A DNA stretch of 64,000 nt from Crambe crambe (taxonomy: Eukaryota > Porifera > Demospongiae > Poecilosclerida > Crambeidae), in NCBI GenBank assembly GCA_963924555.1, contig OZ004582.1, positions 5,146,001 through 5,210,000 of the forward strand. The letters are read 5' to 3'. Both the position numbers and the translations under genes were made by a program. Positions 5,249 to 60,125 of this stretch are shown piece by piece (within the stretch, counting starts at the first letter, position 1; the number at the start of each line of letters is the position of its first letter). The notes under the pieces were generated by a model that worked only from the letters and a program-made list of their open reading frames with translations, was not told the origin of the DNA and ran no database searches.

Positions 5249-6923
5249 TCATTTTAACAGTGGAGAATATTCATTCTGGTGTTCAAATCGATGAGGGAGT
5301 GAATCTCCATTGTGACTTTCCTTTGAAAAGGCCCATCTGTAGCATTCTTTTGTCTTTGAAATTATCTTCTTTGGTAAGACCTTTTGTAAAAATAAAACAG
5401 TCACATACACTATTGGAAAGGTGCCCAGCACATAAAGAACTGCTATATGCCCATTGTACGATATCTGAGGCTCGAAAATATATGAGGATATATTGGTACT
5501 TATTGCAAAGTATACACATGCATAAAAGAGAAAAAAAGCCCCGTCTATTTTGTAGAATTTTTTCCTGTATGGTTTTATGAAAAGAACAAGACCAGCATAA
5601 ATTATGAAGTAAATCCCTGTTAGCGGCAAAAAGAAGAGATCCCTGGTGATGGCAAAAGTCAGAAGCTGGAGAATTCGTAAGAAGATGTAAAAAGAGGCAA
5701 AATATCTGCAATCCTTTGGATGATGGCGGTAACATCCTTGAAAGGCATCCATAAAGGTGTGGAGGGCTTGGCTAGAAAATCCAGTACGCCTAAGACAAGT
5801 TTGAACACAGTGGCATGGATACAATACTAGTAGGAGAAAAGGAAAGATACCAAATACAGTTAGCATTATTAAAGCTAATATGCCATAGGGTTGATGCTCC
5901 TTTCCAAAGTACTCAACCTCTCCATCGTTAAATAGGTAAAGTTGTTTCAAATGCTTGCCTTCACTTGTTTGTAAGTAAACTGGCATCAGAAGATCAAATG
6001 AAATATTGAGAATTTTGACATAAGAGAGTACCAAGAACGTAACAAAGGCTTGGATCAGAGAGCCACTAATATTCCACTCTTTTCTAATCAAACTCAAAAT
6101 TGTGTATACTGGCCTCCATATTCTGACTACAAGTGAGTATCGATCATGTAACATCACTGCAATGTATGTGATGAGTATCAAGAAAAGAGGATAAACTCCT
6201 ACCAAATAATCCAGAGCAAGTACTTGAAGTGTATTCAGTTTCGGATGGATGCAAAAAGGTGCATACAAGGAACGAAAAATATCCAGATTCCATAACGTAT
6301 AATGAGACCAATAATCTGGTAATCAGGGAGTTGTTATTCGATATTGAAACCAATCGCAGTTGGGTTGGAGAGGTTATGATCTGACAAGTCAGAATATAGG
6401 CTATCATTGAACCAGAAGTAACAGAGAGTTTGAAAATCATAGCAAGAAAGTAAAAGACTGTCAGTGGAACAAAGGCAACTGTGATGTACTTCAATAGATT
6501 TCTCTTGTAATCTTCTTTACGACATCTCACACAGTGTTGGGTATAGGAGTAAACTGCTACTCCATAGTCACTGATACACTTTCCACAAAGTTGACCTCTC
6601 CTGTTAAAGATGTGGCATGTCTCATTGTTAATCTGATGAGGGTCTCTTGTGTGTATTGCATTGTGACTATCACTAGGATTTTGATCATGTGAGATAGAAC
6701 ACATGAAAAGGCATTGAGCTATCAGAGTTTGATTCATCTTGTCATTGTATGTCATGCAATAGCAATAGAGAACTGACACTTTCAAGGTCTCATTATCACA
6801 ATGAACGATTCCTCGTAAACTATTTCCACATTGACACTGTCCAGTAATGTTGCTGTGCAGTGTCCATGGAGGGCAAGCAACACTGAGAGTAGCAAACGTT
6901 GAAGCTAGTGAAAGTAGAAACAT
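5249..6923 (-). pseudogene. Short Cys-rich multi-TM family member with one frameshift (copy A)
   Basis: The protein starts at the ATG at 6923 (MFLLSLASTFATLSVACPPW), which gives a signal peptide followed by the family's ACPPW start. The Cys-rich ectodomain ends with CGKCISDYGVAVYSYTQHC. About nine to ten membrane helices follow, with the conserved ALDYLVGVYP, YFGKEHQPYGILAL and MDAFQGCYRHHPKDCR segments, and the tail ends LPHRFEHQNEYSPLLK. The reading frame breaks once near 6290-6305, just before the LWNLDIFRS segment: the upstream frame runs on to 6144 and the downstream frame carries the rest to 5249. Everything else is intact, so this is either a very young pseudogene or a single-base assembly error. 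It is intronless like its paralogues. The ExxxLL in the tail fits endosomal/lysosomal sorting; the biological role is not known. Confidence 0.75.
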
Positions 6924-7275
6924 TGTGCTGAGAAATTCTGTCAGCTGACATTGTAGCAATGGTTATGAAGTAAACTATTGCTTGCTTGGTGCTATTTTAT
7001 AGGTCCTTGTAGCTGTTTCCTGGCCTTCACTAGCTACATCAGATAAGTAATGTGCATACACTGAAAACCATTTGTCCATTAGTTGAATTCTAGGAAAGTG
7101 TGTAGCTAACATAATACTTTTAATTTCCTTCTGATAAGCTGATATTAGCTACACATTGGTTGGGAGAGGTGTGTTAATAATTAACATGGAAATTAGTTAT
7201 CATGATAGATCATAAAAAACTTGTATTATTGTATTAGTAATCTTATGACAAACAATTATAACAACACTTGAACCA
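6924..7275. other. Intergenic, promoter side of copy A and 3' flank of the LDAH-like gene
   Basis: About 350 bp without a recognisable gene. It must hold the 5' region of the minus-strand family member that starts at 6923. No convincing TATA box of the kind seen in the 52-61 kb array is visible. Confidence 0.4.
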
Positions 7276-8223
7276 CTACAACTTAGAATATACGTATTCA
7301 GCCATTTCATTTGATGCACACTCAACAAAAGCATGTGGAAAATTGTTTTGACACAAATGTACCCCTTTGCCAGGATATCTAGCAGCCATTTCATCATATA
7401 AATCCTCCATATTCCATCCATCACCCACTCCATAATAGAAGACTATCTTGTCAATATTAACATCAATAATATGCAATGGAGGATCTGTAACTTCATTCAT
7501 TTCTTGCTTGGCCATTTTCAGAATGTTATACATGCTCTTTTCATCGATATTGATAGCTCCTTGTGTGATGAATTCCAGATGGTTGTCGGGTGTGGTATCA
7601 AAGTGCCTTCTCAAAACAAACTTTTTGAAGGAATTGGGTATTAGTTTGGAACAAATCCATATTAAACCGGTAAAGGGTAGACGTAAAGAAGACCACAGAT
7701 AAGACTGTGATGACTGAGCATTTGGAGTCAGTGCCATCTTTTCGATAGTCGGAAATAAGAGGAATACATTTGACACTTTCGATGTAGGCAACATTTGAAG
7801 CATCTGCAATATCATCCAGCAACCAATAGAATGTCCAATGAGAATAATGGAGTCTCTATTTGATGCCGCTTCTTCCAGGAAAGCCATCTTGTGTGCAACT
7901 TGGTCTTGCAGATTGTACCAGTCAGTAACTGTCTTGCTTTCCTCTGAAAGATAATTCTTGTTTGCTTCCTTGATTTTCTCCAGTGATGTATCTTCCAGAT
8001 TTTTGTAGAATCCAGGTGAGTGACCAGCATGTGACACTACAGAGACGTCTAACTTGCCTTCCCCCAACTCAAACAGTTTACAAGCAAAGGGGATGTAGAA
8101 ATGACCCATTCCTGGACTCCCAGGTATGATGACCGCCAATGGAGGAGCAGCTCTGGCTGACTCAGTCTTGCATCTCTTAAAAAAGACATGAGTAGGAACT
8201 CCTCCAACCCTTCTCACTTCCAT
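7276..8223 (-). CDS. LDAH: Lipid droplet-associated hydrolase (LDAH/C2orf43-like)
   Basis: A single-exon alpha/beta hydrolase of 315 residues, close to the roughly 325 of vertebrate LDAH. The oxyanion-loop motif IIPGSPGMGHFY lies near residues 32-43, the nucleophile elbow GHSIG at 130-134 (Ser132), and the probable catalytic His is in NNFPHAF (His297). The segment YNLQDQVAHKMAFL ahead of the elbow is typical of the family. I chose the ATG at 8223 (MEVRRVGGVPTHVFF) because it lines up with the known start of the family. An upstream non-ATG extension to 8346 is basic, GC-rich and unlikely to be translated. LDAH proteins sit on lipid droplets and are implicated in neutral lipid and sterol ester turnover. 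The substrate here is not visible from sequence. Confidence 0.88.
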   Translation of the reverse strand: MEVRRVGGVPTHVFFKRCKTESARAAPPLAVIIPGSPGMGHFYIPFACKLFELGEGKLDVSVVSHAGHSPGFYKNLEDTSLEKIKEANKNYLSEESKTVTDWYNLQDQVAHKMAFLEEAASNRDSIILIGHSIGCWMILQMLQMLPTSKVSNVFLLFPTIEKMALTPNAQSSQSYLWSSLRLPFTGLIWICSKLIPNSFKKFVLRRHFDTTPDNHLEFITQGAINIDEKSMYNILKMAKQEMNEVTDPPLHIIDVNIDKIVFYYGVGDGWNMEDLYDEMAARYPGKGVHLCQNNFPHAFVECASNEMAEYVYSKL

Positions 8224-8983
8224 CGCAAACAAATAGAAGAAGGTAAAGGGTCCACCTTTTAAACCAATGCGTGGGCGGGCTCGGATCGATATCGGCGCGC
8301 GCGGCTGGATGTGCATTGGTAAAGGGTCGGCCTGAACTTGGTACAAGAAGCTAACCTTTTCTTTTTTTGTTCAGTGCAGTGCTATTCCATGAAAGAAATT
8401 ATTAGCTCTGCTTTTAGCTATGTCTGTGGTCAGCACCTTTTTCACGCCTAATGTTAGTTGGACTTGTACTAGGAAGAGTATGACCAGCAGTAGCTCTGAC
8501 CTTAGTCCTATGCTCTGCTAACTGTCATAAAATTTACATTAACCCTACATCGCTGCAAGGTGTAGCCAAAAAGGATAAAATTGCAGCAGTGATGTAGGAT
8601 TTGTCAACACAAATGCAGTCCAAGCAGTGATGTAGGGTTTATCAATTCTGTGACAGTTAGCAGAGCAAATGCAGTACATAGCCAGCAAGCTACCCCACCT
8701 TGTTTCCATACTTTTTATAGTCATGTACTCAAGCCTACACCACTCTTTCATTTTGAAGAAATATTTTTCATCAAAGCAGTAGCTACAGTAGCTAGTGGTA
8801 GTTATTAGCTAATGGCATAAAGATTAATACATGTATATACAGCCAAACAAAGTTAATACTAAGTACTGTAGCTAGCTAATAGCTAACAATAGAGCTAGCT
8901 ACAATAAAGCAGAATCAAATACATCTAACAGCTATGATTGACAGTTCAATGAGTCAAGTACAAATTGGATAGTTTGTTGATTT
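8224..8983. other. Upstream of LDAH-like gene and left end of segmental duplication
   Basis: From about 8540 onwards the text matches 29960-30360, the left flank of the second LMF2-like copy. At 8541-8640 a short inverted repeat begins with aaccctacatcgctgc and ends with gcagtgatgtagggttt, which suggests a tiny inverted-repeat element. The same end motif occurs at 56390-56470. No coding sequence is seen. Confidence 0.55.
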
Positions 8984-11900
8984 GTGTCTTTTGTATAGCC
9001 CTTTTTGTTTCATCTTGGAATTTTCCTGAGCTCGTGACTCTTCATCACTACTAGAATCACTGGAAAAAGTAGAACAACGCTAATAAAGCAATCATGCTTG
9101 AATTAAGATTTATAAAAAACTTGACTACAGTGGAAACTCTAAATAATGGACACATTTAATTTGGATGCGGGGTTTTGTCCGTTGTAGATCTTTTGGAGGT
9201 TATTTTTTATAGAGTGTATTATACAAAGACTGTCCTTTGTTGAAGGGTTTTTATCAAAGGTTCCACTGTACTACGTACATATATATCTTCCTTAGAGCCT
9301 TATCACAAGAATACGACTTACAAGGCTTCAAGGTACTGTTCTATAATTGGCACCATGGACAGCCGATTGTCTCTCATCTCTCTCAGGATAGAGTGAGGTA
9401 GATCACAAGGGCAGTAAAGAACAGAAGAACTGGAGCAGAAAGTTTGTTTGAAGTGTCTTGAAGGAAAAAGAGTAGAGGCAATAGTGGGGAAATGTGTGTT
9501 TTAATATAGACAAATACAGTGGGATATAGTGACTAAAGTTACATCTGGGGAAAGGAGACAAAGGTATATTGCCCCCTCCCCTCCTCCCCCCTAAAAACTA
9601 TGCTACTTGACTGCACTGTAAGTACTATTAGTGAAGTACTCAAGGAACAAAAAAAAAAAAAAATAGTAGTGTTTAAATGGGCGTGGCTAAGCTTAAAACC
9701 TGGTCCATAATCAATAGTGCTACCACTTTTAAGTGTTGCACCCATTTCAGTGGTTCGAGATGACATTTAAAAAGGAACCAAACCATAAAATTGGACCTCC
9801 AAAGAGTGGAAACCTCAAATGAGGAGCCAGCATCAATCCCACTTACTTTAGTTAAATAGCCATAGGAATGCAGGTATTCCTTCAATTTTTCATTATCCTT
9901 AGATAAAGGATAGAGAAAATCATTCTTCAGACTTCTTTCCCACCACATCTGAGCCAAAATATAAATTGATGACCACCACATTTGGTCCTATTGTATTCCT
10001 TTGTGGTATAGAACATGCATAACAAAACACGTACCATCTTTCTGGAGCTTATATGCCAAATGGACCAACCACGGATTGTTTTTATAGTTACCCAATGCTG
10101 CAAACCACATTTGCCAGTCCAGCCTGGGCTGATGAGGTGCTACAACGAGAGAACATCATTAGTGATTGTTACCCACAGGGTGGCACATAGTAACCAGAAC
10201 ATTAACGTTAAAATAATTGCCTAGAATTTCAAGCCATGTAATAGATATCATAATTATTATGAATAATAAACTACCTAAAATTAACCACTGCACATACCAA
10301 TACATAGTATTCTTCATTACTCCTTGGTTTATATTCAACCAAAGGGTAAAAATATACATGAATACATGGATTATTGTCCCTTGGTAAACTGAAACCTTGG
10401 ACCATAGAATTGAAGCTAAGATATTATCATCTTGATCATGAAAATTAATTTACCGACAAAAACTGGAGGAATGTTAACATGTCCTGGTTTATACAAGAAG
10501 TTATACTCCTATATTAAGAAACATAATGGTGATAATATTATGGGAAGCTGACTTTTAATTCAAGTTAGCGGAACCTACTTTCCATTGAGCACTGTTTGCA
10601 TCAGGTGGTTCTGAATTAGTTCCTTCAATGATGACCTCAGGGCGACCTTCAACTCCTGTCATTCTAGTGAGGGGATGGAACATCTCATCCATGTATAGTT
10701 GCTATGGAAAACTAAGTTATTAAGTATCATAAATACCACAAATGAAGGGAGACCGACAAATTATAACAAAATTGAGTACCACTAGCTTAAATATTTTATG
10801 CTTTAGTTGATACTATAATTATTAATTGTTACCTAAAGTAAGGTCGTTGGACCTTACTAGCATGCCACCTGTCCCAGGGTGCTCAAAGCATATTTAGTTT
10901 TGGTCTTGGGTTACAATGAATTAGTCGTTCAGCCACCTTCTCTTGGGTCAAGGGTATAAGGGGAACAATAGATATTCCCATGAACATCAATCCTCTAGAG
11001 ATATCAAGAGAACATGCCCCCAAGAATGATTAATACCTAGAAAAACAGTGAAGAAAAGGTTATTTGTATACATTACGGACCTCCTGAATAAACCATAAGG
11101 ACTGGTCACTGAGAATTGATCAATTTGATCATGAACTGTCTTCACTGAGGAAGGAATGGAGTTGTGAAATTTTTGGTCGAGCACACCATGAGAAATGAGA
11201 GAGATAGAGAACATGGCCACTACTATACCACAGTGCTTTATCAAGTATTCCAGGCTGTTGCAGTATCCTATAAAACATAATATTGTACATTTAATCAGCA
11301 TGTATAAATTATTAGCTCTGAAGAGTCCAGAAGAGTCCGGATCTTAAAGAGGTCTGAAGTACACATACAAATTTCTATTCAAATAATACAGTAACGGAGT
11401 GGGCTTTATTTAGACCTCTATGTGTGGTCCACTGAGGTTTCGATAATACATAGCTATGTAGCTGTACATCAAATCAAAGCTATGATTATAACTCACTCTA
11501 GCAAGGCATTTAGAAGTTCTATGGCCAGAGATATAGCAGCCATTATAGCCAGTACGGGGACAGCCACTGCTAAAGCATGCTCAAATCCTTCCTCCGAAAA
11601 ATCTTCATAAACAGATGACTAAATAAATAAAGTTTTCTAGCTACATGTTAGTGGTAACCTGAAATAGCAAATCACCTAGTAAAAAAGAAAATTTTGTTCA
11701 AAAGGGCAATATAAATTTAATTTCAGGATGTGTAGCTTGCTTTTAATACTAGATTAACACTATTCTATTTGCCAGGTTCCTTTGTAGAGGGATAAAATTC
11801 AGTAGTTGTGATTATTATTAGAAACATGGTTACTTACTGGTGTTGGATGAAATAGCAAAATTCTTAAAATCAAGTTTGATATCGAAGAAGTAAACAGTGA

Positions 11901-12495
11901 GTGCTAGGAGAGTTCCAGTGACTGTAATGAAAGATAGTATCCTCAAAGCCGAGGAAATACTTTTACCACAAATTGCATGGAAAAAGTTCGAGTGGATCCT
12001 AGAACGAAATTAATAATCGTCACTGAAAGAACTTTCTTTATAAAATAAAAGCAACTTAGCTACACTTTTTAAATTAGAGCACATGGACTTAAGAATTAAA
12101 CACAAAACTCACCCCTGGATTCAGACACTAGCCCCACCAGTATAAATAGGAGATGAAAAATTAATTGTGGCTCTGTGAAATATGACTTACCATAGTCATC
12201 TATCAAGGAAATGCTCAAGGTGATAGTGAGGAAGTTGAAGAAATTGTAATTGCCTGTGGCTATTATCAGGACTTGAAGGAATACCTACGGGGGTTAAACA
12301 AAGCACTCTTCAAGAGAAAAACCATAATATTATAATATAGAAGTAACCCCCACCCCTAGTCTATAGAATGCAGTCTTCCCTAGAACCTAACAGGCTTAGC
12401 TAATACCATACGTATAATATTATTCAGCCCACTTTCTTTCAACGATACATACAGTGGTGGGGTAGAGTGTCTAATAGACTTATACAGTGTACTGT

Positions 12496-12517
12496 GTGTG
12501 TGTGTGTGTGTGTGTGT
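12496..12517. repeat. (GT)n microsatellite
   Basis: A run of GT dinucleotides in an intron of the LMF2-like pseudogene. The equivalent place in the other copy (34203-34216) has a shorter run. Confidence 0.9.
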
Positions 12518-13073
12518 CGATCTGGTGCCCCTCGGGATATTGCTATAAGGCCAGTTGTATTACTAGAAGAAATTTGTGTGGGGTGGAGGATTATAAACAG
12601 ACAACAAGGTTTAAAAAAAACCAATAAATAAAAATGAAATAATGACACAAACAACAGCAATAAATAAAAAACAACAACAAAACAACACAAACAAAATAAT
12701 CTTGAAATACAATATAGCTACCTTGGATACTGTTGAAGGCATGGGCCTACTGTATATTTCTCTGTAGCTTATTACCCACATTAAAACTACTGGAAGGAAA
12801 AGCTGACATCTAGAGATACATGATAACTATGACCATGCATAGTAACCTGGGAGAGGAATCCAAAAATCCTGAGTGACCTGACGGGCAAGAAGAACAGGAT
12901 CAGTGTCACTATCTCAATGAAGAAGGTAGCCACCACACTCATCTTCTGGACCTATTCAGGAAACTGGTGGGCATACCATGATAATGGAGTAGGTATACAC
13001 TAGAAGTGAACGAAAATCTGTAAGAGTGGGGACATTAATTGATAATTATTCTGGACTAATCTATAATGAAATG

Positions 13074-13093
13074 GGGGGGGGGGGGGGGGGGGG
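13074..13093. repeat. Poly-G run
   Basis: About 20 consecutive G. The other copy of the segmental duplication has only a short interrupted G tract (about 35310-35318), so this run expanded after duplication or is prone to sequencing error. Confidence 0.85.
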
Positions 13094-13500
13094 AAGTAGG
13101 ATATGCATATAAAGCCTGTAACTATATGTCAGATATTGAAACCATGATTTCTTTCTTTTGTTCGGGCATAATTACCCAACAACAAAAAAACAACAAACGA
13201 AAACAACTATAACCACAACAAAAATAAGAACTGCTGGAGTTCTATAAGCAAGGTACATAGGCTCAATATTAGCAGCTACATAGTTAGACTAATAGTGATA
13301 AGATATGTATACATGTCTTCATGGAGAAGTAGCTTCTCTTCTTTCCCAAAAAATGTGCACATTTATCCATGATACTTCTACTTTATAACATACCCGACTT
13401 GTAGTGATAGTTGAGAGCAGTTAAGCCCCACCTACCTGAGACTCATAGTGATAGGCCCCACCTACCCAAGTCTTGTAGTAGAGCTAGATAGAGATAAGCC

Positions 13501-13879
13501 CTATTCATATGTGAAAATGGTTGGGCGGAGTTGTGTGTTAATACATTTTCAATGGGAAGTTATTAGAGGTGTTTCCAATAATAGAATTATTATCAACATG
13601 ATAGTATTCTAGCTATTACGTCGTATTCATAGTTATTAAAGGGTTCATCATGTCCAGTTCTTTGAGATGAATGAAGCACACCAGAGTTATGATTTTTTTA
13701 AATGCTCAAAATCTTCTAGTTATAAAAAAATTACGGGGAAAGGGCTAATGATTTGTATACAGTTAGTTATACAGTCATGTGTATGAACTTGCTAGCTACA
13801 TAAAGCATAGCTAATTATAGTAGCTAACTAAATTTTTGTCACCTAAAAAAATGTTTTCACTATAGCTACTCTGACTCAA
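13501..13879. other. Intergenic, breakpoint side of the segmental duplication
   Basis: Similarity to the second LMF2 copy fades at about 13500, inside the degenerate 'gccccacctacctgag' minisatellite. The rest is AT-rich without a recognisable gene. Confidence 0.5.
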
Positions 13880-19924: not shown

Positions 19925-20026
19925 CACCTCGACCAACGGGATCTACGGTCTGTTTAGAAACCTTCGGGACGCTACAGCCCAGGGCTCTCAGGTTTCTAAA
20001 TAGACCGTAGATCCCTTGGTCTCGGC
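19925..20026. repeat. Short palindrome
   Basis: The left arm 'gaccaacgggatctacggtc...tttagaaacc' is repeated as its complement at 19990-20025, with a spacer of about 25 bp. A related palindrome with 'gatcccgttggtcgag' lies at 38733-38871, so this is a small dispersed family. Confidence 0.65.
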
Positions 20027-20214
20027 ATAGATATACCATAGATATACTTAGCCTCGTTCCCAGGCTCTCAGTGAAACGGGAAATGTGGGGGCGGAAAGGA
20101 GAGCCTGGTTTCTACTGCACGCACGGGCGTGTAAATTTTGACCACATAATTATATTCATAACACGATTGATGATGTAATTATTAAGTAAACGTCACAATT
20201 AGTACAAACGCGCG

Positions 20215-20450
20215 ATGGATGCATGTCGCTTGTGTGAGCAGAGTGCAGCTATTGCCTTGTTTAGCAGTTCTGGATTATCATAGAAGTAGGATCAACAAAC
20301 TCCTGGATGTCCCTGAGCTAGCTCCAGATGACCCCTTCCCATCACACGTCTGTCAAGCTTGCAAGAGGAGAATAGTTTCCTTGGAGAAGGCAACTGCAAA
20401 CATTACTAGCTTCAAAGAGCTGGCCAGATCTTCTTTGCGGAGATCCCTTG
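20215..20450 (+). pseudogene. ZAD-like zinc-finger domain fragment inside transposon
   Basis: Translation from the ATG at 20215 gives MDACRLCEQSAAIALFSSSG, then a stop. One frame over, the text continues RINKLLDVPELAPDDPFPSH then VCQACKRRIVSLEKA. Together they have the CxxC...CxxC spacing and the LF, DDxxP and hydrophobic positions of a ZAD (zinc-finger associated) domain. The frame break near 20275-20285 and the sudden end near 20445 mean it is a relic. It begins about 95 bp inside the left TIR, so the TIR could have supplied its promoter. Confidence 0.6.
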
Positions 20451-20454
20451 AGAG

Positions 20455-20645
20455 CAGGGGCACGAACACGAACATATCCTTGCCATCAAATACAGCTCGG
20501 ATAGCCAGCTTCTGCTCTTCCTTCAGCAACAGTTCGGGTAAACCAAGCATTGACAGGGCATGAGAAAGTGCTTGCGGATAGTGGGAACTTGAATCGCTTG
20601 AAGAAACGCTAGAAGAAACACTCTCAGAAACGAACTCGCCATCTT
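20455..20645 (-). pseudogene. RecQ-like helicase N-terminal fragment inside transposon
   Basis: On the minus strand a Ser-rich stretch leads into LGLPELLLKEEQKLAIRAVF then DGKDMFVFVP. In RecQ-type helicases the sequence just before motif I has the form 'LK..Q..AI.A...GKDVFV..PTGxGKS'. Here the reading stops matching exactly before the Walker A TGxGKS, where the fragment is fused tail-to-tail to the ZAD fragment. It cannot be an active helicase. Confidence 0.55.
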
Positions 20646-21518
20646 GCACAAAAAAACGCTGATTAGACAAAAATTATAATTATGATGAAATCAAAAACGG
20701 GAAAGTACGGAGGGAATCCAAATCCCCCGGAATGTGAGGGATCCGGTCTGCAGTAGAAACCAGGCTCTCCTTTCCGCCCCCACATTTCCCGTTTCACTGA
20801 GAGCCTGGGAACGAGGCTAATTAGACTACATACACAGAATTGGAAACAGGGCATGCGCGCGCGTAGAATTTATAGACCATCCGTGTAGGTACCTGGCGAA
20901 CAGAGAAATCTTACACAAAATAAGAAAGAGGGTGAAAGGCAAGGTATTTAGAGCAGCAATAATTATGATTATAAGTGAAAAGGCTCAATGACCTATAGCT
21001 GTAGTAGTTTATCGTGTCAGTTTAGTCTATTTACTGTTGCTATGGAAGAAAAGCGTGGAAATAGGTGACTGAAAAGTTTTGTGGCACTCCTACTAAAATA
21101 GAAGTCTAGCTGCCTTACTTTTGGTATAAAATGAAAGATACTAGTTGACCATATGTACTCAAGTAGTTTTAATTTTGTGCAGGGCTGGAGATGGCATGCT
21201 ATTTGCCATTGATGGTTTAAGAAGCCATTTCACTATGTTGTTGTTCTTATATGAGGAGATGAGATACCTTCTTGTATCAGGGGCAGGAAAGGATACACTG
21301 GGGCAGCTTTACTCTTCATCTTGATCCCTCAAAACAAGTATATCACAACAAATCTCTCGATGAATTGGATGTTCAGCAGTGCACTATCAGTACTTGTTAT
21401 TATCATTTTTTTAATTATAACATGAAAGGAAATATGTGTAAAGTGACAGTATTAGTTGCTACATTATAGTATCCTTCTTTACTATAGCTTTTCTTGACAG
21501 CCAGTCATGGGTAATCTG

Positions 21519-21906
21519 TAGTCTGGCACAGCACCGCCCACCGACTTGAGTAGGTGGTCTGGTGACATACAATACAACGAGTTGTGCCGGTGGATTCTAA
21601 TGCGCACGCGCGTTACTAACAGGAAGTGTTGTAGGAAGCGGTATTATAATCAGCCAGTGACATCACAGTTGTCATAGTTATTCTTAATTTAATTGGCACG
21701 CATGGCGCGATGGCAGGTACAATTTTAGTACGCGAACACTTACAGGATCTAGGAAAAGGCGCCAAGTGTTTGCATAATTTTACGTCATTAAACGTCATTT
21801 AATGATATTCATTGATTTAGCAGTTTTCCTGCTAAACGGCACAACTCGTTGTATTGTATGTCACCAGACCACTACTCAAGTCGGTGGGCGGTGCTGTGCC
21901 AGACTA
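21519..21906. mobile_element. TA-flanked MITE with 70-bp TIRs, 388 bp
   Basis: The terminal inverted repeats run 21519-21589 and about 21837-21906 and differ by one single-base gap. They begin TAGTCTGGCACAGCACC. The start TAGTCTGGC is shared with the element at 42755-43257, which suggests one superfamily. The interior of about 245 bp is non-coding. Confidence 0.85.
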
Positions 21907-21949
21907 GGTAATCTGAAGAAACAGTAACATCGACATGATTTTTTTACAG

Positions 21950-22335
21950 GCACCTTTAAAAAGTACATATGTACATATAAATGATCACTACCTAACAGAT
22001 TAGTGGGGGAAAAGAGACTATACTTTTAACATCCAAGCTCCAGAGGTCCACAAAGTCGAACTACCATTGTTACTCGCAATTATACCCTCTAACACTTGAG
22101 AAACCAGCCTTTTTAAGAACTATGCTTGTTTAGCACTATACTAGCCCACTCTTTGCATTCTTTGAACTTACCAATTGGCTATAGTTTAGCAGAAATTTGG
22201 CACACTACTTCTCCTCCCCTGTTTGTTTGGGGCAATTTAGCACGAACAGCTGCCGACACGGATTGTCAGTATTGTCGTTATGGGCGCACGTGACCTGTTT
22301 CCAATCCTGTGTACGTAGTCTAGTATATCTATGGT
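21950..22335. repeat. Dispersed repeat, inverted copy at 59650-60045
   Basis: Segments such as 'gactatacttttaacatcca', 'tttagcactata', 'gaacttaccaattggctata' and 'cacgtgacctgttt' occur in the same order, reverse complemented, at 59650-60045. The element is about 380-395 bp and ends with ctagactacgtacacagg. No coding capacity is visible. Confidence 0.75.
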
Positions 22336-24061: not shown

Positions 24062-24601
24062 TACCCTAGTTGTGTGGAATGCGGAAAGATATTTGATGTT
24101 GTACCAAGAGTATGGAAAATAGCTATTAGTCTCACATAGCCAGACCCGATTGTTATGCAAAATATATCAAAGGAAGAGGCTCTCATGTATGAACCCACTT
24201 GAGTATATCAAATGTCAATGCAATGCAGAAAGACATGGAAGAACTTTTCATGAAAGCATACTTGATATAGTATTCTGTGTCCTCAGCAGCTCATGAATGC
24301 GGAAAGAGCACTTAAGCGTTGAGTGCTCCAATTGTTGAGTGCTCTAATTGGAGCACTCAACGCTTAAGTGCTCTTTCCGCATTCATGAGCTGCTGAGGAC
24401 ACAGAATACTATATCAAGTATGCTTTCATGACAAGTTCTTCCATGTCTTTCCACATGATATACTCAAGTGGGTTCATACATGAGAGCCTCTTCCTTTGAT
24501 ATATTTTGCATAACAATCGGGTCTGGCTACGTGAGACTAACAGCTATTTTCCATACTCTTAGTACAACAAATATCTTTCCGCATTCCATACAACTAGGGT
24601 A
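24062..24601. mobile_element. 540-bp near-perfect palindrome (foldback element)
   Basis: The left arm from TACCCTAGTTG to about 24330 is repeated as its complement up to CAACTAGGGTA at 24601. The arms are about 260 bp each, with a minor internal difference near 24210-24230 against 24445-24455 and a spacer of at most about 15 bp centred near 24335. Both ends are TA. The structure could extrude as a cruciform or give a long hairpin RNA. No coding capacity is evident. Confidence 0.9.
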
Positions 24602-24954: not shown

Positions 24955-25790
24955 AATTACAGTTGTACCATGTGTTACAGTTGTTCCATGTGTTACAGTG
25001 GTACCAAATTGTTTCATGCATTACAGTGGTACCATGTGTTACAGATGTTCCATGTATTACAACTTGTTCCATGCGTGACATGCATTATGTGTTTACAGTT
25101 GTTCGATGCATTTTGTACCATGTGTTACAGTTGTTCCATGCGATACAGTGGTAGCTACCATGCATTATACAGTTGTTCCATGCGTTACAGTGGTACCATG
25201 TGTTACAGTTGTTCCATGCGTTTCAGTTGTTACATGTGTTACAGTTGTTCCATGTGTTACAGTTGTTCCATGCGATACAGTGGTAGCTACCATGCATTAT
25301 ACAGTTGTTCCATGCGTTACAGTGGTACCATGTGTTACAGTTGTTCCATGCGTTTCAGTTGTTACATGTGTTACAGTTGTTCCATGTGTTACAGTTGTTC
25401 CATGTGATATATACAGTGGTAGCTACCATGCATTATACAGTTGTTCCATGCGTTACAGTGGTACCATGTGTTACAGTTGTTCCATGCGTTTCAGTTGTTA
25501 CATGTGTTACAGTTGTTCCATGTGTTAGTTGTTCCATGCGATACAGTGGTAGCTACCATGCATTATACAGTTGTTCCATGCGTTACAGTGGTACCATGTG
25601 TTACAGTTGTTCCATGCGTTTCAGTTGTTACATGTGTTACAGTTGTTCCATGTGTTACAGTTGTTCTATGGGTTACAGTGGTAGCTATCATGTGCAGTTG
25701 TTTCATGTATTACAATTGTTTCATGTGACATGTGTTACAGTGGTTCCATATGTGTGTTACAGTTGTACAGTTGTATAATTGCAGCGAGCG
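24955..25790. repeat. Minisatellite of about 18-bp units with higher-order structure
   Basis: The basic unit is 'tgttacagttgttccatg' with variants (gtggtacca, gcgtttcag). A higher-order block of roughly 125-145 bp, marked by 'gtggtagctaccatgcatta', recurs about four to five times between 25130 and 25690. Open frames through it are low-complexity (CYSCSMRYSG repeats) and result from the unit length being a multiple of three. Confidence 0.92.
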
Positions 25791-29530: not shown

Positions 29531-30360
29531 GCTTCTAAATAGAAAACATAGTAGGAATTTAAAATTCCATGCCTATCAACCATCTAAATGCAAAATATTT
29601 ACTTAAATTATGTTATTCACACTCTCAATACTAATATTCACCTGAAAATAACTTCACACCAACAAAACTTCATAAAGCAAGGAGGATACATCAGGCTATG
29701 TAAGTATCAACGCTTCGGGGAACTGACTCCTAGGGAGGCTTAAATAGTTTATCTAAGGCAGTATTCAACGTACTGTTAGGGGAGGAAAGTTCTTACCTGC
29801 ACGAACGGAAAGAGCAACTCTAGAGCTCCAAAATGATATATTTTTGTGTAGACTTTGGTCCTACGATAGCCTGAGAAATTCAAATTGAAAATTTGACCTT
29901 TTCGGTGCCGCGCGAAAACGTATAATTTTAAAATTAAATGGTGACGTAATTTTGGTGACCTTTGGACTCGTAGGGTTTATGTCAATTCCATGACAGCACA
30001 AATGCAGTCCATGCAGCAATGTAGGGTTTGTGAATTCTGTGAGTTAGCAGAGCTAATGCAGTACATAGACAGCAAGCTATCTCACCTTGTTTCCGTACTT
30101 TTTATAGTCATGTACTCAAGCCTACATCACTCTTTCATTTAGAAATGTTTTCCCTCTCATAACAAAAGCAGTAGCTACAGTAGCTAGCTAGTAGTAGTTA
30201 TTAGCTAATGGCATAAAGATTAATACATGTATATACAGCCAAACAAAATCATAAGTAGCTAATAGCTAACAATAGAGCTAGCTACAATAAAGCAGAATCA
30301 AATACATCTAACAGCTATGATTGACAGTTCAATGAGTCAAGTACAAATTGGACAGTTTGT
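29531..30360. other. Intergenic; left flank of the segmental duplication (copy 2)
   Basis: From about 29960 this matches 8540-8960, including 'tactttttatagtcatgtac' and 'taatggcataaagattaata'. No gene is recognised in 29531-29960. Confidence 0.6.
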
Positions 30361-33300
30361 TCACTTGTGTCTTTTGTATAGCCCTTTTTGTTTCATCTTG
30401 GAATTTTCCTGAGCTCGTGACTCTTCATCACTACCAGAATCACTGGAAAAAGTAGAACGCTAATAAAAATAAGCTTCCCATGGAATTATGCTTGAATTAA
30501 GATTAAAAAACAAACAAAAACAAAACAACTTGACTACAACAGAACCTCCAAATAAGGACACACTTGGATGCGGGCTTTTGTCCTTCATTATAGAGTGGAG
30601 GTTATTTTTTTATAGAGTGCAATATACAAAGATACATTAGTAGACTGTCTTTTGTTGAAGGGTTTTTATCAAAAGTTCACTGTAATTACCTTAGAGCTTT
30701 ACTACAAGAATACGACTTACAAGGCTTCAAGGTACTGTTCTATATTGGCACCATGGACAGCCGATTGTCTCTCACTTCTCTCAGGGAATATTAGCGATAG
30801 AGTGAGGTAGCTCACAAGGGCAGTAAAGAACAAACTCCACAGAAGAACTGGAGCAGAAAGTTTGTTTGAAGTGTCTCGAAGAAAAAAGAGTAGAGGCAAT
30901 AGTGGGGAAGTGTGTGTTTTAGTATCCACCTATAAAGATAAATACAGTGGGACAATTTGGGACTATAGATTTTCATCTGGGGAAAGGAGACAAAAAACAA
31001 CAAACAAACAAAAAAACTATGTAACTTGACTGCATTGTATTAGTGAGGAAGAAAAAAAACAACAAAAAACAACAACTAAATGGGCGTGGCTTATGGAAAG
31101 TGGGTGTGGCCAAGCTAGAGAATTTTCTTACCATCATAAAACCTGCCATAGTTTAAGTGTTGCACCCATTTCAGTGGTTTAGGATTACATTTTTCAAGGA
31201 ACCATACTACTAACCTCAAATGAGGAGCCCACTTACTTTAGTTAGATAGCCATAGGAATGCAGGTATTCCTTCAATTTTTCATTATCCTTCGATAAAGGA
31301 TAGAGAAAATCATTCTTCAGACTTCTTTCCCACCACATCTGACTTTGATTAAATCTAAAGCAATATGTATAATAGTGAGTGTTATAAACCACCTTTGATC
31401 TCACCCATGCATGGGATATAAATATACATTAGACTTACATAGGTTTACTGATATTGTAGGCTGTGAAATGATAGTGGTATAGATGAGCTCTGATGTACTT
31501 TGGAGGAGAAGAGAAAGGAGGCACGTCCATTAATTGCAGAACTACAGGATCAAATACACTATAACTACACTGTTTATGCAATTGAATGGAAACTATTATG
31601 GATAGTTTGAAGTACTTTCCCTTTGATCCTTTGATATAAACTTTCCTATAGCATACAGATAAATAGAAAGAAATATTGAAAGTAGGGTACTTATGAGCAT
31701 GGAATAGATAGAAGTCTGCACAGTCATGTAGTTCATAATCATAGCCAAAATATAAATTGATGATGACCACATTTGGTCCTATTGTATTTCTTTGTGGTAT
31801 AGAACATGCATAATAAAACACATACCATCCTTCTCTCCCACTAGGAGCTTGTATGCCAAATGGACCAACCATGGATTGTTTTTATAGTTACCCAATGCTG
31901 CAAACCACATTTGCCAGTCCAGCCTGGGCTGATGAGGTGCTACAATGAGAGAACATCATTAATGGTTGCTACCCGCAGGGTGGCAGAACATTAACATTTA
32001 AATAGTTGGCTATTACCGACAAGATTTATTCACACCATGCCTAGAATTTCATATAGCAAGCCATATAATGGATATCGTATGAATAATAAACTACCACTTT
32101 TTAAAATTAACCATTGCACATACAAAATTAGTATTCTGCATTACTCCTTGGCTGATAGGGTAAAAATATACATGAATACATGGATTACTGTCCCTTGGTA
32201 AACTGAAACCTTGGACCATAGAATTGAAGCTATGATATTATCATCTTGATCATGAAAATTAATTTACCGACAAAAACTGGAGGAGTGTTAACATGTCCTG
32301 GTTTATACAAGAAGTTATACTCCTATATTAAGAAACATAATGGTGATATGGGAAGCTGACTTTTAATTCAAGTTAGTGGAACCTACTTTCCATTGAGCAC
32401 TGTTTGTATCAGGTGGTTCTGAATTAGTTCCTTCAATGATGACCTCAGGGCGACCTTCAACTCCTGTCATTCTAATGAAAAAAAATTAAAGGGGGATGGA
32501 ACGTCTCGTATGCATAGTTGCTATGGTTATTAAGTATCATAAGGGAGACTGACAAATTATAACAAATTGAGTATCACTATAGGATTCTGTAGCTTATTTT
32601 ATGCTTTAGTTGATACAAATTAATTGTTACCTAAGGTGAGGTCGTTGGACCTTACTAGCCTGTCACTTGTCCCAGGGTGCTCGAAGCTATGCATTCTATT
32701 TAGTTTTGGTCCTGGGTGCCTGAAGCTATGCATTATAACGCATTAGTCACATGACTAATGCATCACAATGACTAATGACTTGGGTCAAGGGTATAAGGGA
32801 TTTTCCCATGAACAGCAATCCTCTAGAGATATCAAGAGAAACATGCCCCCGAAAATGATTATAATACCTAAAACCACAGTGAAGTAAAGGTTATTTGTAT
32901 ACATTAGAGACCTTCTGAATAAACCATAATGACTGGTCACTGAGAATTGATCAATTTGATCATGAACTGTCTTCACTGAGGAAGGAATGGAGTTGTGAAA
33001 TTTTTGGTCGAGCACACCATGAGAAATGAGAGAGATAGAGAACATGGCCACTACTATACCACAGACAAACAGAGAAGAAAGAAGAGAGAGTGCTTTATCA
33101 AGTATTCCAGGCTGTTGCAGTACCCTATAAAAATAATATCGTATATTTAATCATTGATAATGTATGGATCATTAGCTCTGAAGAGTCTGGATCTTAAAGA
33201 GGTCTAAAGTACACATACAAATTTCTATTCAAACGATACAGTAACTTGGAAACAGGGTGGGCTTTATTTCACCTTTATGCGTGGTCCACTGAGGTTTCGA

Positions 33301-36300
33301 CAATACATATGTAGCCATACATCAAATCAAAGCTACGATTATAACTCACTCTAGCAAGGCATTTAGAAGTTCTATGGCCAGAGATACAGCAGCCATTATA
33401 GCCAGTACGGGGACAGCCACTGCTAAAGCATGCTCAAATCCTTCCTCCGAAAAATCTTCATAATCAGATGACTAAATAAATAAGTTTTTTCTAGCTACAT
33501 GATTAATCTATTAGTGGTAGCAAATCACCTAGTATAAAAATTTTGTTCCAAAGGGTCAGTTTGGCAATTCATGAGAACAGTATTCATGTCAATTTAATTT
33601 CAGGATGTGTAGCTTGTTTTTAATACTAGATTAACACAATTCTGTTAACTAGGTTCCTTTGTACGAGGGATAGTTGTGATTATCAAGAAACATGGTTACT
33701 TACTGGTGTTGGATGAAATAGCAAAATTCTTAAAATCAAGTTTGATATCAAAGAAGTAAACAGTGAGTGCTAAGAGAATTCCTGTGACTGTAATGAAGGA
33801 TAGTATCTTCAAAGCCGAGGAAATACTTTTACCACAAATTGCATGGAAAAAGTTTGAGTGTTTCTTGTTGGATCCTAGAATAAAATTAATAATCATCACT
33901 GAAAAGAACTTTATAGTATAAAAGTGACTTAGCTACACTTTTTAAATAATACTATTGAATGCTATACGGTTCATCACTAGATTCAGAGAAACATAGCCCC
34001 GGATGAAAAATTGTGGCTTTGTGAAACATGACTTACCATATCCCAAAAAATGGTCATCTATCAAGGAAATGCTCAAGGTGATAGTGAGCAAGTTGAAGAA
34101 ATTGTAATTGCCCGTGGCTATTATCAGGACTTGAAGGAATACCTACATGGGGGTTCAACAAAGCACTCTTCAAAAAACAGTGGTGGGGTGGTATACTGTG
34201 TACAGTGTGTGTGTGAGTATTGATCTGGTGACCTTCAGGTATCACTATAAGGCCGGTTGCATTATTAGAACAATTTTTTTGTGAGGATTATAAACAGACT
34301 ACAAGGTTAAAAAAACAACCAATAAACAGAAATGACAAACAACAACCACAATAAATAAAAACAAAACAAAAAACAATACAATCAAAATAATCTCAGGGTT
34401 CTCCCTAGGCATCTTAAGGCATAGCGGGGCGCTATGCCTCAGTTCTATCCGCTATGCTTTGCCCCTTACCGCTATGCCTTCTTCTTGTACCGCTAGATAG
34501 ATTATTCTTGATGTAGCACACCAGATTAGTCATGCGTGGTTTGCAATAATAACATAATTCCTTATAAGGCAGGTGTTGTTATTGTAGTACACGTGTAGGT
34601 TGCAATGCATAATTGCTCTAAAGATCTTTGTAGTCAGACCAAGGTTAGATGATAGTGGAAGTAGTAAGTGCAGCTCAGCCTCTAAACCTCTTGTGATTAA
34701 TAAGCTGTTATAGTGCAAATAGAGCTAATCTGGGACCTTATTGGATTCGCTATATTTCAGCTTCTGCACTATGCATGGGAGGGGGAACATCCCCCTCCCG
34801 CACCCACCCCCTGTGGATGCCATACAAGCTCACCCCTATGCCTTAAGAAAATCCTGGGGAGAACCCTGAATCTGATATTGTTTCTGCTTGAAATATGATA
34901 TAGCTACCTTGAATACTGTTGAAGGCATGGGCCTACTAAATTTTCCATGTAGCTGCTAAATTAATACAGAATTTTTTTACCCACATTGATTAAATTATTG
35001 AATATTGGAAGGAGAAGCTGACATGTAGGATACATGATTACCATGACCATGCATAGTAACCTGGGAGAGGAATCCAAAAATCCTGAGTGACCTGACTGGC
35101 AAGAAGAACAGGATCGGTGTCGCTATCTCGATGAAGAAGGTAGCCACTACACTCATCTTCTGGACCCATTCAGGAAACTGGTGGGCATACCATGATAGTG
35201 GAGTAGGTATACACTAGAAGTGAATAAATCAGCAAGAGTGGGGACATTAATGTTACATTCATCAGACATTTGGACATAAATATTCTGATTCTGGACTAAC
35301 CTAGAAATTGGGGGAGGGTTTAATTCTTAAAAGGATATGCATATAAAGCCTGTAATTATGTCAGATAATGATTTCTTTCTTTTGTTTGGCATAATTACCT
35401 AATTGCTTAGAATAACAACAAAAAACAACAAACAAAACAACTACAACCACAACAAAAATAAGAACTGTTGGAGTTCTATAAGCAAGGTACATAGGCTCAA
35501 TATTAGCAGCTACATAGTTAGAGTGATAAGATATGTACACACTGTCTTCATGGAGAAGTAGTTTCTCTTCTTTCCCAAAAATGTGCATATTTAGCCATGA
35601 CACTTCTACTACTTTATAACATACCCAACTTATAGTGATAGTTTGGAGCAGTTAAGTCCCACCTACCTGAGATTCATAGTGATAGCCCCACCTACCCGAG
35701 TCTTGTAGTAGAGATAGAGATAAGCCCTACCCTACCTACTTGAGTCTTAGTTAAGCCCCACCTATCTGAGTCTCGTAGTGATAGTTAAGCCCCACCTACC
35801 TGAGTCTCGTAGTGATAGTTAAGCCCCACCTACCTGAGTCTCGTAGTGATAGTTGAGAGCGGTTAAGCCCCACCAAGTGGGACAGAGTGAGGTCAGTTTC
35901 ACTATTCCAGATGCAAACATCAGACGAAAGAGAAGCCAGCGGATCAACCATAAGGTAAGTCCATCATGGCAACTACCAACCGGTCTGCATAAAAGTTGAA
36001 ATAGTAGTAACCTGTTACTTAATAGTACCACTACATGCAAAGCATTGTGTGGCAAGCACGCATGCTCAAGATATAAACTACAATTGTTAGATATGAGGGA
36101 TGAAGGATGGAAATGGGATCAATCTTTGTTCTGTATATCCAGCCAACAATCCCAACACGTCCTATAATTCAAAGCTACCCAACATATATGTAGGGATTGT
36201 TGGCTGGATATACAGAACAAAGATTGATCCCATTTCCATCCACCCTTGTTTCCTTACTTTTTTGAGCAATGGTCATCATTTCATGGATGTTTTTTCCTCA

Positions 36301-38383: not shown

Positions 38384-39733
38384 CTGTAACAGATTCAAAC
38401 TCGATATAAAAGGTGTTCTGATATTAACAGAGGTGGACATTAACAGAGGTGTCCTGATTAACAGAGGTGTCCTAATAACTCAAGACAACAACTGCCTTAC
38501 ATACACTTATAGGGACAGTGCCAGGTGTCCTGATTAAAGAGATAAAAGAGGCATAATAAGGAAAGAGTTGGGCAACAGAGAGTGCTCATAATCTCACTTA
38601 TTATTTAACAGGGAGCCAGGAGTTTCCATGGTAAGAATAATATATGATAGTCCCATGAAAAAGTAAAACAGTCTCCAATTAGTTTAATTTGCTATTTCTC
38701 AAAATATGCTTGATAAATTTGTCCCAAAAAATAGTTAGACAGCGAGACCGAGGGATCTAAGTTATTTAGACACCCGAAGGCCCGAGGCTGTAGCATCCCA
38801 AGCGAAGCAAGGGTACTAAGGGCCTGAGGGTGTCTAAATAACTTAGATCCCGTTGGTCGAGCTGTCTAACTTATTTAGAACATAGCAACAACTACCTAGC
38901 AACAGCAAACCTTCCATATCTTCACAGCAGGAGCGATAGCTAGCTAGAGCTATAATGCTAAGATTCTAGCTACGACGTAAATAACAGAGATATTAGCTAC
39001 TGACGAGTACACCTTCTCTAGTTTTGAACGCTGCAGTGACCCGTCTTGTTTGGGAGAGCCTCGATGCAGTGTGAAGGCGGCAGCACCTGCTGCGCGCGCA
39101 GGAACCAGCAAATGAGGGGAGGGGCCAGGTAGCTTGTAATTGTAGCAGTGAACCTTCGAATGAAGAAACGGATGAATTTACTTCAACAACTACAATGCTG
39201 GATCAGCTCAGTAACTTAGTTAGAACAAACTTCGATCATATTATAGCTATGTATGTAGCTAAATCTAGCTATCTTAATCATTCCATGATCATGATTATAC
39301 TTATAGCTACAAAACACAAAAAGAAACAGTGAAATACTTTTTTCACATCTCCTTGGTGATCACATTAGTAGCTATAGTAACATAAACAAGATAATGCCTA
39401 ACAGTAGGTTTTCTAAGAGCCTGGGGCACTTAGAAAATCTACTGTTAGGCACTTAGAAAACCTGAAGTCAGTTAGAAACACTGTAAAACCACTGAACTAT
39501 GTTCTAAACTTGGTTAGACCAGCTCTATACCAAATTTCCAGACCACGGCACACTTAGAGTATTAGTACTGTAGTTTTCGTGGGATTAAATTTTTGTATAA
39601 TTGTTCAGTGATGTGATAATAAATTGTTACTAATAATATGAAAGTTTACGTGTATAAACTCTTGAGTGACAATGAAGGCTAAAAAAAAAAAGCTCTTAAA
39701 ATTTGTAATTCAACACTAGCTACGTACTGTCAC
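38384..39733. other. Intergenic/5' region of LMF2 with repeats
   Basis: Contains a short tandem repeat of 'taacagaggtgtcctga' (38420-38480), a palindrome at 38733-38871 (see separate entry) and an inverted repeat 'cctaacagtaggttttctaa' near 39396-39460. The missing first exon of the LMF2-like gene should be here but was not recognised. Confidence 0.5.
38733..38871. repeat. Palindrome with about 43-bp arms
   Basis: The arm 'agttagacagcgagaccgag...tttagacaccc' is inverted at 38828-38871. The spacer contains a second, imperfect inverted pair (cccgaaggcccgagg / gggcctgaggg). Related to the palindrome at 19925-20026. Confidence 0.75.
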
Positions 39734-43257: not shown

Positions 43258-44631
43258 ATAGCTAACTGACATGTGGTTGAGCCATGTGGTTTGCAGGACA
43301 GCATTAGGTGCTGGCCTTGACTTTGTGGCTGGGGAAAATGTTTTCATAGCCCCATTGTCTTAGCTTCCAGAGCTGGTACCTATCTTATGCATGACAAGTA
43401 TTCTGCTAAGTGCTATATGTGGTTGATATGCAAGACTAGTGCTGTTTATACAGGACTTGGTGCAGTGTGGTTAGGGTCTATTCGGTTCAAAAACAATTAA
43501 GATTTACCTTGAAATTATTATTAACAAAATTTCCCAATATTCATAATAGCTGATGTGATGTATAAATGCAAACAAAAAATAATATTGCAAACAAATTATC
43601 ATTAATTTTTCCAACATGTACGGTGCTTAACCATGGCACTATGCTCTTGCCTGTGTGGGTGAGTTAGAGCACAGTGCATGGATGGGTTATAGCACACAAC
43701 GTCACACAATTTATGGCTTATTTGATCTACAGGCTGGGCATAACACAATAAGTCTTTGAAAATGTTATTCCTTCATTTACAGCAATAGCTGACAAACAGA
43801 AAGCAAACCTACACCAAACATGTGAAAATAAATATCACACAGTTCTCACAGTATAAATTTGACACTTAATCAAGCCAATAATGACAACTGTCACATTTAT
43901 CATTATAAAGTGTCTGTTTAGATTGAAACAATTTCAGTAAGCATGGGATAGATTGAGCACCAACACTTTCAGTCAGGATGGGACAGGTTGAGTGCCAGAC
44001 TTATGGCTACAGGCTGGCTAAATAGAAAGTTTATGGTTGATCAGCCCAAAGTCCAGAAGTCTTATCAAAGTTGTACAATAGAAAAAACAAATCACCCTTT
44101 TTGATGTAATGCAAACTAATAACAAACAACATCTGGTGGACACAAAAATTAAAATAACTTTCAAAATGAGATGCATTGTATAGTTAAAAAGAGATTATGT
44201 TATTATAGGTAAAATAATAACATAATCCTCTACTTGGAAAGCTAGAATTACATAAGAATTCACATATAGCTCCTGCAATCTTACCTGTGGCCATGGTAAC
44301 TACATATTACTGCCTCATGATTAAAAGAATCTGTGTTCACTAGCTATAGCTATGATATGTGATATTAGTTGGAGGCGTTTATAATTCACCTGTTGAGCTA
44401 TGATTGTTTAAACTGAACTTTCTCCTCTTCATTAAAATATTACTGATCACTACTGATACAATTTTGATTGACTACTGACCACTGAAAGGCTCTCAGTGCG
44501 AGGTATAGTGCCCATAGATTTTGTCAGTGAAAGAATTGCCTGAAGATTTGTCTCAGGAGTGAAAAGGATTAAACTCAGGCTGTATCCTGTAATGATTTCC
44601 TAACATATAGCTAAAGCCAAACTGGTTGAAA
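43258..44631. other. Intergenic, promoter side of copy B
   Basis: AT-rich. No exon or mobile element is recognised. The 5' region of the intact family member at 44632 must lie at its right end. Confidence 0.4.
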
Positions 44632-46377: not shown

Positions 46378-47462
46378 CGTAGAGCAGACTTATACGTAGC
46401 TATGAGATTAAATATAACACACAGAGACTTGGCTAGCTTAAACAATTTACTTTTGCTGCAATTATGAGTTAAATCTGATTTGTTCAATATCCACAGCACG
46501 AGCAGGGCTGTCCTCGGAGCGCACTAGCGCTGTGCAACTATAAAGCTTAGAAAGACTTCAAATCAAGCTCTAAAGCTATGGCTATAGATTTATGAGGGTC
46601 TGGCTCAGCTAGGAGAGAATCCAGCACCAGCGGTAAGGTAAGGTAAGCTTTTAAGCTTATGCGCTTGGAATAACAAACTAACTAAAATACTTTCACTACC
46701 TCTTCAATACCTTACTTGACTCTAGCTTTATAGTTAGTTTGAAACTCAGCCCATCCACACTGTACCTGTACTGTACTGACCGACGATCCTGCATGCGATC
46801 GATTACAAGCATGCGCAGTGACACAATTTACCGCTCTACTTTTTTTTTCTGGGGACAACCCTGCATGAGATATTTTTGTGCCACTTCATGAGGAAAATAC
46901 CAACAAGAGATATTCATTTTTTTTTGTAGATTCATTTCTATGAGAGATACTCTCTGCAACTTTATGCACAATAATAACAGCAAAGTATAGCATCATATGT
47001 AGCACTTAAACTTTGTGTCTGCATGCATGGCATTACATGCACAAAAAGCACAAACACCAGAAAAGGTGTAGTACAGTAATTAAGTCTTGAATGCATGTAA
47101 GCATAAACACTCAAAGAGCATGCACAATGCAATATAGTAGTTTGCAGTGCCTTCAAAGCTATATCATAATATTTACTATATCACACTTTCAAAGCTACAT
47201 TTTGTGTTGTAATAATAACAATGATATAACAGCTCTTGCTATCATGTGTTTTATCACAATTATGAAGTAGCCACTGAATAATGAAACCAAAAGTATTAGG
47301 ATAATGCTTATTTTTAATTCTCAGGCGATACAGAGATTAGCACATTTCTAGTATAAATAAATGAAAGTTCAAATAACAATAGTATAGGAACAGACTGTAC
47401 ACAGCTAGTGCTTTATACATAATGTATATACTTTAAATCTTTGACTTATTATAGGTATTATC
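46378..47462. other. Spacer between copies B and C
   Basis: AT-rich with short T-runs (46840-46850, 46918-46926). No exon is recognised. The text just before 47463 (ttgacttattatag) resembles a splice acceptor, so a 5' non-coding exon of copy C is possible. Confidence 0.4.
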
Positions 47463-51761: not shown

Positions 51762-51871
51762 GTGTGAGAAAAACTGTTGAGTTACATAACGCATCACTAT
51801 AGCTTACTTATCACTTAATGAAGAAACAAAGGAAATGAGAACAAAAACCTCTTGTAAGTGAAATATGTACT
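51762..51871 (+). promoter_or_regulatory. Conserved upstream block of array member D
   Basis: About 110 bp ('gagaaaaactgttgagttac', 'catcactatagcttacttat', 'cacttaatgaagaaa', 'cctcttgtaag') is retained upstream of all four array members: here, 54933-55030, 57295-57400 and 60552-60660. It lies about 210-330 bp before each ATG. Whether it is regulatory or just part of the duplicated unit cannot be told from this window. Confidence 0.5.
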
Positions 51872-52034: not shown

Positions 52035-52085
52035 GGAGAAACAATCCAGTTATCCTACAAAAGACAGCTGCTATATCACTATAAA

Positions 52086-59338: not shown

Positions 59339-60125
59339 TATGTAAACTATTAATTTTGTCAGTAAAAGTTTTTATGAATGATTATCGTAGGTAGTCTTAA
59401 TGTTTTAAAGTGGTTATATAAGCATTAAATAATAGTAAATAATTTGCTTCAATTTCTTAGAAAAGTCTGACCAAGTTCCAATCATTTAAAGCTAAACATC
59501 CAAATAAAGGACACGTTGTGCTCCCAATAGCTTTCTATGGAGTACACGCAAGGGCTTTCTTCTTGCTGCTGTGTGAACTGTACAAGCGCATGTCAATAAG
59601 ACTGTAATTATGCAAATTAATGAGGGTGAACGTACTACTATGGAATAGTTAATGATTATAGCGACACAGATGTACTAGACTACGTACACAGGATTGAAAA
59701 CAGGTCACGTGCTCCCATAACAACAATAAAATACAATCTGTGTACGTAGGTAGCTGTATGTGCTAAATTGCCCCAATCAAACAAGGGAGGAGAAGTAGTG
59801 TGTCATCTTTGTGCTAAACTATAGCCAATTGGTAAGTTTAAAGAATGCAAAGAGTGCATGGGGTAGTGTACAGTGCTAAACAAGCATACGTAGGTCTTGA
59901 AATGGGAAGTGTTAGAGGGTATTATTGAGAATAAACACAGGTAGTTAGACTTTGTGGACCTCTGGAGTCTGGATGTTAAAAGTATAGTCTCTTTTGGTTA
60001 GTGATCATTCATATGTACATATATGAGGTGCCTGTAATATCAATATCACTGTATAGGGATCATTATTTTGCATGCATGTCAATCTATCATTGAATATTGT
60101 AATATCAATATTATGTGCCTGTGCA

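Follow-up and report, generated by a model that had tools for sequence, protein, structure and literature searches.

In a 64,000-nucleotide stretch of the genome of the sponge Crambe crambe (contig OZ004582.1, positions 5,146,001 to 5,210,000, hereafter termed the window) we identified a nested, non-autonomous DNA transposon of 773 bp, located at positions 20048-20820 of the window. This unit ends in perfect terminal inverted repeats (TIRs), interrupts an older repeat and carries two coding relics, the left one similar to the ZAD zinc-binding domain and the right one weakly similar to superfamily 2 (SF2) helicases. We consider, with a probability of about 0.6, that it is a frameshifted internal-deletion derivative, no longer autonomous, of a DNA transposon that carried two convergent genes.

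The terminal arms of the unit match at 72 of 72 bases when one of them is inverted, in agreement with the preliminary description of this DNA, and at 74 of 75 when three more outer bases are included. The 22-base TIR tip was found at two sites only in the window with up to three mismatches allowed (0.00 expected). A BLASTN comparison of the whole unit with the window returned no second copy and no transposase was recognised among the open reading frames (ORFs) of the unit. The sites lacking the element establish more firmly than the ends alone that the ~0.77-kb unit is an insertion, since the insertion point is crossed both by the intact other arm of the host repeat and by another copy of the repeat end at 59.7 kb (Table 1). 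After removal of positions 20048-20821, the joined flanks differed from the uninterrupted arm at only 2 of 42 bases. The 59.7-kb copy also spans the insertion point, with a dozen bases on the left, outer side of that point having diverged. Inverted repeats at both borders together with a homologous element-free site place the unit among the non-autonomous TIR DNA transposons. The host repeat itself is an older DNA repeat with inverted arms extending over 20035-22335, to which the stretch at 59665-60022 is related, and it also harbours a short nested element (21519-21906) whose inverted arms of 71 bp are 98.6% identical and have TAGTCTGG... tips. Directly left of the transposon lies a small hairpin element (19931-20021, 26-bp arms, 96% complementary), a diverged relative of which was found at 38743-38886.

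Table 1. Coordinates of the transposon, its coding relics and the interrupted host repeat within the window.
Feature	Position	Strand	Basis or remark
Tip of interrupted host-repeat arm, left of insertion	20035..20047	+	repeat comparison
Left terminal inverted repeat	20048..20119	+	72 bp, 100% identical to right one
ZAD-like (zf-AD) N-terminal relic	20215..20440	+	zf-AD E = 5.4e-5 (X joining the two frames)
Putative deletion junction between relics	20441..20458		reading frames; inference
SF2-helicase-like (possibly RecQ) N-terminal relic	20458..20583	-	profile builds, weak
Candidate helicase-gene start codon	20640..20642	-	178 bases inside right terminus, good context; frame differs from that of relic
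Right terminal inverted repeat	20749..20820	-	72 bp
Remainder of interrupted host-repeat arm, right of insertion	20822..20865	+	repeat comparison
Uninterrupted opposite arm of host repeat (element-free site)	22279..22335	-	repeat comparison
Second copy of host-repeat end, without insertion	59665..60022	-	79.6% identical to 21967-22333

In order to assess the target-site duplication, symmetric boundary parses were scored by the number of extra edits they required relative to the element-free arm, all of the following values being derived from one insertion copy. The zero-cost baseline was an asymmetric cut with 774 inserted bases (20048-20821), which was also among the best-scoring parses in a separate scoring. 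Three types of symmetric parse had the lowest cost, with 1 extra edit each: a duplication of 0 bp (ends TTAGCC or CTTAGC), a mismatched one of 1 bp (C/T) and one of 3 bp with a single mismatch (ACT/ATT, ends TAGCC). Duplications of 2, 4 or 5 bp required at least 2 extra edits, the best 4-bp parse being TACT/ATTA, and those of 9 and 10 bp required 4 and 5, respectively. The TA dinucleotides noted in the preliminary description are indeed present at both borders; a TA duplication, however, would cost 5 extra edits with ends GCC...GGC or 3 with ends CTTAGC. As a self-complementary dinucleotide within the inverted repeat, TA would be found at both borders with or without a duplication and is thus uninformative. 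We therefore rejected the TA duplication as evidence, the element-free arm being better fitted by 0 bp, or by 3 bp with one mismatch, and TA is not the favoured answer. Furthermore, no pair of TTAA flanks the unit, as would be expected for a Kolobok-type duplication.

The two coding relics, which span ~40-76 residues, both look N-terminal. As previously proposed from the reading frames, they face inward and are each cut off where they meet, at ~20441-20458. ATG codons in a good start context (a purine at position -3 and a G at position +4) lie 167 bases inside the left terminus of the unit and 178 bases inside the right one, and the only other one (20342, minus strand) falls within the left relic and opens a frame of just 16 codons. 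The left ATG, at 20215, opens a 22-codon frame that is broken near 20282, beyond which a second frame continues to ~20440. The translated peptide contains two CxxC pairs (CxxC ... CxxC), an N-terminal arrangement that it shares with the ZAD zinc-finger proteins (zf-AD, PF07776). In Pfam, a single frame matched zf-AD with E = 0.03, and the two frames joined by X gave E = 5.4e-5, the match covering positions 2-57 of the 75 in the profile. Since the score of this truncated, joined relic (23.8 bits) lies below the gathering score of 28, we refer to it as ZAD-like: the similarity announced in the preliminary description was recovered, in a domain that is incomplete, frameshifted and short of the Pfam cut-off. 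Weaker matches to the unrelated ArlX (E = 0.062) and Gin (E = 0.048) models were also obtained and there was no match in NCBIfam or PDB. We regard the identification of the left relic as ZAD, made from its predicted peptide, as moderately secure. ZAD proteins are known as host transcription factors, mainly in insects, in contrast to the present relic, which sits inside a transposon.

The right relic was investigated by ranking the 2769 stretches of the whole window that run from stop to stop over 15 or more amino acids against purpose-built profiles. A first RecQ profile of 26 sequences was obtained by scanning 32 loci, from which 22 stretches were usable and 10 were dropped, and by adding 4 PDB stretches. 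For the later profiles an enlarged set of 62 loci yielded 18 stretches of DEAD/SF2 type, 23 of RecQ type and 2 others, too few for use; the DEAD/SF2 set is mixed, 5 of its 18 sequences being of a different SF2 kind, in which P precedes TG, and two entries representing the same stretch. The right relic ranked first among the 2769 stretches with all four builds (two RecQ, DEAD/SF2 and combined), with window-wide E values of 0.09 and 0.15 for the RecQ profiles of 26 and 23 sequences, 0.035 for DEAD/SF2 (18 sequences) and 0.034 for the combined profile (41 sequences). The core of the combined-profile match covers 20467-20514 and the helicase-like stretch stops at the expected start of the Walker A motif. 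None of 5000 shuffles of the relic's own stretch (3810 scored) reached its score with the 26-sequence RecQ profile. These results weakly suggest an SF2-helicase-like relic, possibly of RecQ type. The RecQ fragment named in the preliminary description keeps a weak helicase resemblance, which does not separate RecQ from other SF2 helicases.

A single internal deletion in a convergent two-gene element explains why two N-terminal-looking relics face inward and share one junction. The autonomous parent would have possessed inverted ends of ~72 bp and two converging genes starting ~170 bp from each end, and one large internal deletion would have reduced it to the 773-bp non-autonomous unit. The product of the first gene would have begun with a ZAD-like zinc-binding domain, either the transposase's own DNA-binding head or the start of a separate DNA-binding protein. 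The product of the second would have started in the manner of an SF2 helicase, possibly a RecQ, which could have unwound DNA while the element was being excised or inserted, or during repair. Once the deletion had taken place, the frames of the coding stubs would have been lost and the ends would have stayed intact. The left frame is broken, and a second frame loss may be proposed because the right-hand ATG in good context does not open the frame of the helicase relic. A frame that broke while the ends remained perfect points to movement of the deleted, short form in trans, most likely mobilised by the transposase of the parent, and to its insertion into the older repeat. The internal deletion put forward in the preliminary description is accordingly retained for its inward relics, single junction and insertion, with the second gene described as SF2-helicase-like instead of RecQ.

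Several observations weigh against this interpretation. With a limit of E = 10, Pfam, NCBIfam and PDB returned no helicase for the right relic, its sole library match being to an unrelated dehydrogenase model (E = 0.13). When the combined profile was run on shuffled windows, in which base composition was kept in 200-base blocks and dinucleotides were not kept, 1 of 30 gave a higher score than the relic (13.4 versus 11.0). The DEAD/SF2 profile scored slightly above the RecQ profile on the right relic (11.1 versus 9.3 bits), and the frame of the candidate start codon, as already mentioned, is not that of the relic. Moreover, the window contains no full-length copy of the element and the unit lacks a transposase.

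A somewhat unlikely alternative, which is compatible with the internal deletion and bears only on the novelty of the family, is that the unit belongs to a family already catalogued in the host, for example of Kolobok, Academ, Harbinger/ISL2EU or Tc1/mariner type. Helicase-bearing DNA transposons are known, as the preliminary description had stated: the sections of PMC9587614 dealing with these elements describe a RecQ helicase in KolobokH and one on the complementary strand in Kolobok-1_CCri, and a RecQ helicase is likewise reported in Academ (PMC3627910, in the part concerned). The same sections list Kolobok for sponges and cnidarians. The position of the Kolobok-1_CCri helicase opposite the transposase strand, perhaps paralleled here, provides a precedent for a RecQ gene in that orientation. 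The Kolobok elements so described produce 4-bp TTAA duplications and have 5'-RR ... YY-3' ends (PMC9587614), whereas our unit is devoid of a TTAA duplication, and the main text of PMC9587614 does not contain the term ZAD. The ORFs of the unit showed no transposase that could be compared with the DDD/E enzyme of Kolobok and its C/DxxH signature. AcademH, which the present reading would resemble in its RecQ helicase (PMC3627910), is credited in the relevant passages of PMC10045372 with duplications of 9-10 bp as compared to 3-4 bp in AcademX, a difference linked there to the helicase and nuclease. Lengths of 9-10 bp are not convincing in our unit, as the edit counts given above indicate. The best duplication parses do fall within the range of 0 to 4 bp given for the PHIS group (PIF/Harbinger, ISL2EU, Spy) in the corresponding parts of PMC12730594 and PMC10045372. 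Harbinger-related elements are described as having duplications of 0, 2 or 3 bp and two-protein layouts (PMC12730594), one two-protein PHIS element, Nuwa, combining a transposase with a Myb/SANT DNA-binding protein (PMC12730594, PMC10045372). These PHIS descriptions mention no helicase and the unit retains no transposase by which it could be classified. As for Tc1/mariner, the TA at both borders lies inside the inverted repeat and the element-free arm speaks against a TA duplication.

It is less probable that the ZAD relic alone is genuine and that the helicase-like stretch arose by chance, in which case the unit would derive from a one-gene ZAD-headed transposon or would be a miniature inverted-repeat transposable element (MITE) with one captured fragment. 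The missing library matches, the window-wide E values of 0.03 to 0.15 and the shuffled window that scored higher all agree with this proposal. It is countered by the fact that the stretch ranking best of 2769 in four builds falls within the 773-bp unit and that its similarity stops at the putative junction, just short of the Walker A position. Gene capture, in which a short inverted-repeat element (a Pack-type MITE) acquired the 5' ends of two host genes with no relation to one another, appears marginally more improbable still: the relics do not look related, no parent element was seen in the window and ZAD and helicase genes also exist as host genes, yet such an origin would need two independent gene starts, both directed inward, at similar distances from the ends (167 and 178 bases) and sharing one junction.

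Searches for relatives of the unit were mostly negative. Neither the 20-base tip nor an inner 22-mer had an exact match in viral_contigs, and protein searches of the same collection retrieved 18 and 52 stretches that fitted a pattern, none of which was confirmed by tblastn. The ORF containing the helicase relic gave no match as protein in phages, nor did the whole unit as DNA in plasmids. A single tip match in genome_contigs, to a cyanobacterial contig, had 21 bases in common with the unit and neither relic; it was treated as a coincidence because ~0.5 exact 20-mer matches are expected by chance in 257 billion bases on both strands. In the literature, a transposon combining ZAD and RecQ was absent from the matches listed, as was a ZAD-bearing transposon from their titles and abstract starts. 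PMC11008031 was discarded as a ZAD-transposon paper, its one occurrence of ZAD being an author's name. Two 16-base pieces of the tip had no occurrence in the published papers searched.

The window as a whole has a G+C content of 38%, looks eukaryotic from its ORF content and gave no Rfam match at gathering scores. Among its ORFs, one is dermatopontin-like (DERM, E = 8.5e-39) and another is of RING/B-box/NHL type, and in this animal-like context the ORF at 1979-3073 matches a Chlamydia-PMP-type repeat (E = 3.9e-12 for the whole protein, none of the individual stretches being significant). Similar stretches at 51747-53845, 54856-56348, 57277-59334 and 60536-62628 form a tandem array with ~79-90% mutual identity. 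Its longest ORFs have 624 and 568 amino acids, the four ORFs scanned had no Pfam match, and the product of 60847-62550 resembles a membrane protein with a cysteine-rich N-terminus. ORFs of 588, 567, 357 and 272 amino acids at 44611-46377, 47445-49148 and 5249-6962 (minus strand) share ~66-67% DNA identity and matched nothing in Pfam at a threshold of E 0.001; the product of 44611-46374 has the look of a multi-pass membrane protein and resembles, by eye, that of the array. A segmental duplication links 8602-13503 to 29991-35729 (78-81% identical). Its first copy is adjoined by a lipid-droplet-hydrolase-like ORF (7279-8370, E = 1.7e-56) and its second contains an ORF (31438-31881) with a sub-threshold match to a lipase maturation factor (E = 6.1e-6). 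A large nested palindrome occupies 24062-24601 (inverted arms of 134, 111 and 38 nt, centre of 12 nt), and a tandem array at 24957-25727 is built on the 18-bp unit TTACAGTTGTTCCATGTG, with a 132-bp period at 25113-25692 (95% match).

At present, the transposon is represented by a single copy, well anchored and non-autonomous, of whose coding relics one is moderately and the other weakly supported. RecQ-carrying transposons have been published, KolobokH and Academ being described as such in the passages cited above, and no pairing with ZAD was present among the papers listed. Whether the unit stems from an animal transposon lineage not previously described, encoding a ZAD-headed protein (possibly the transposase) and a convergent RecQ-type helicase between ~72-bp ends and producing a duplication of 0 or 3 bp, is doubtful; if it did, this lineage would connect the ZAD domain with a source among mobile elements. 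THAP and BED domains travel with transposons. If the parent was organised as we propose, its ZAD-plus-helicase layout would join the few transposons with accessory helicases and would suggest that ZAD domains travel with transposons in the same manner.
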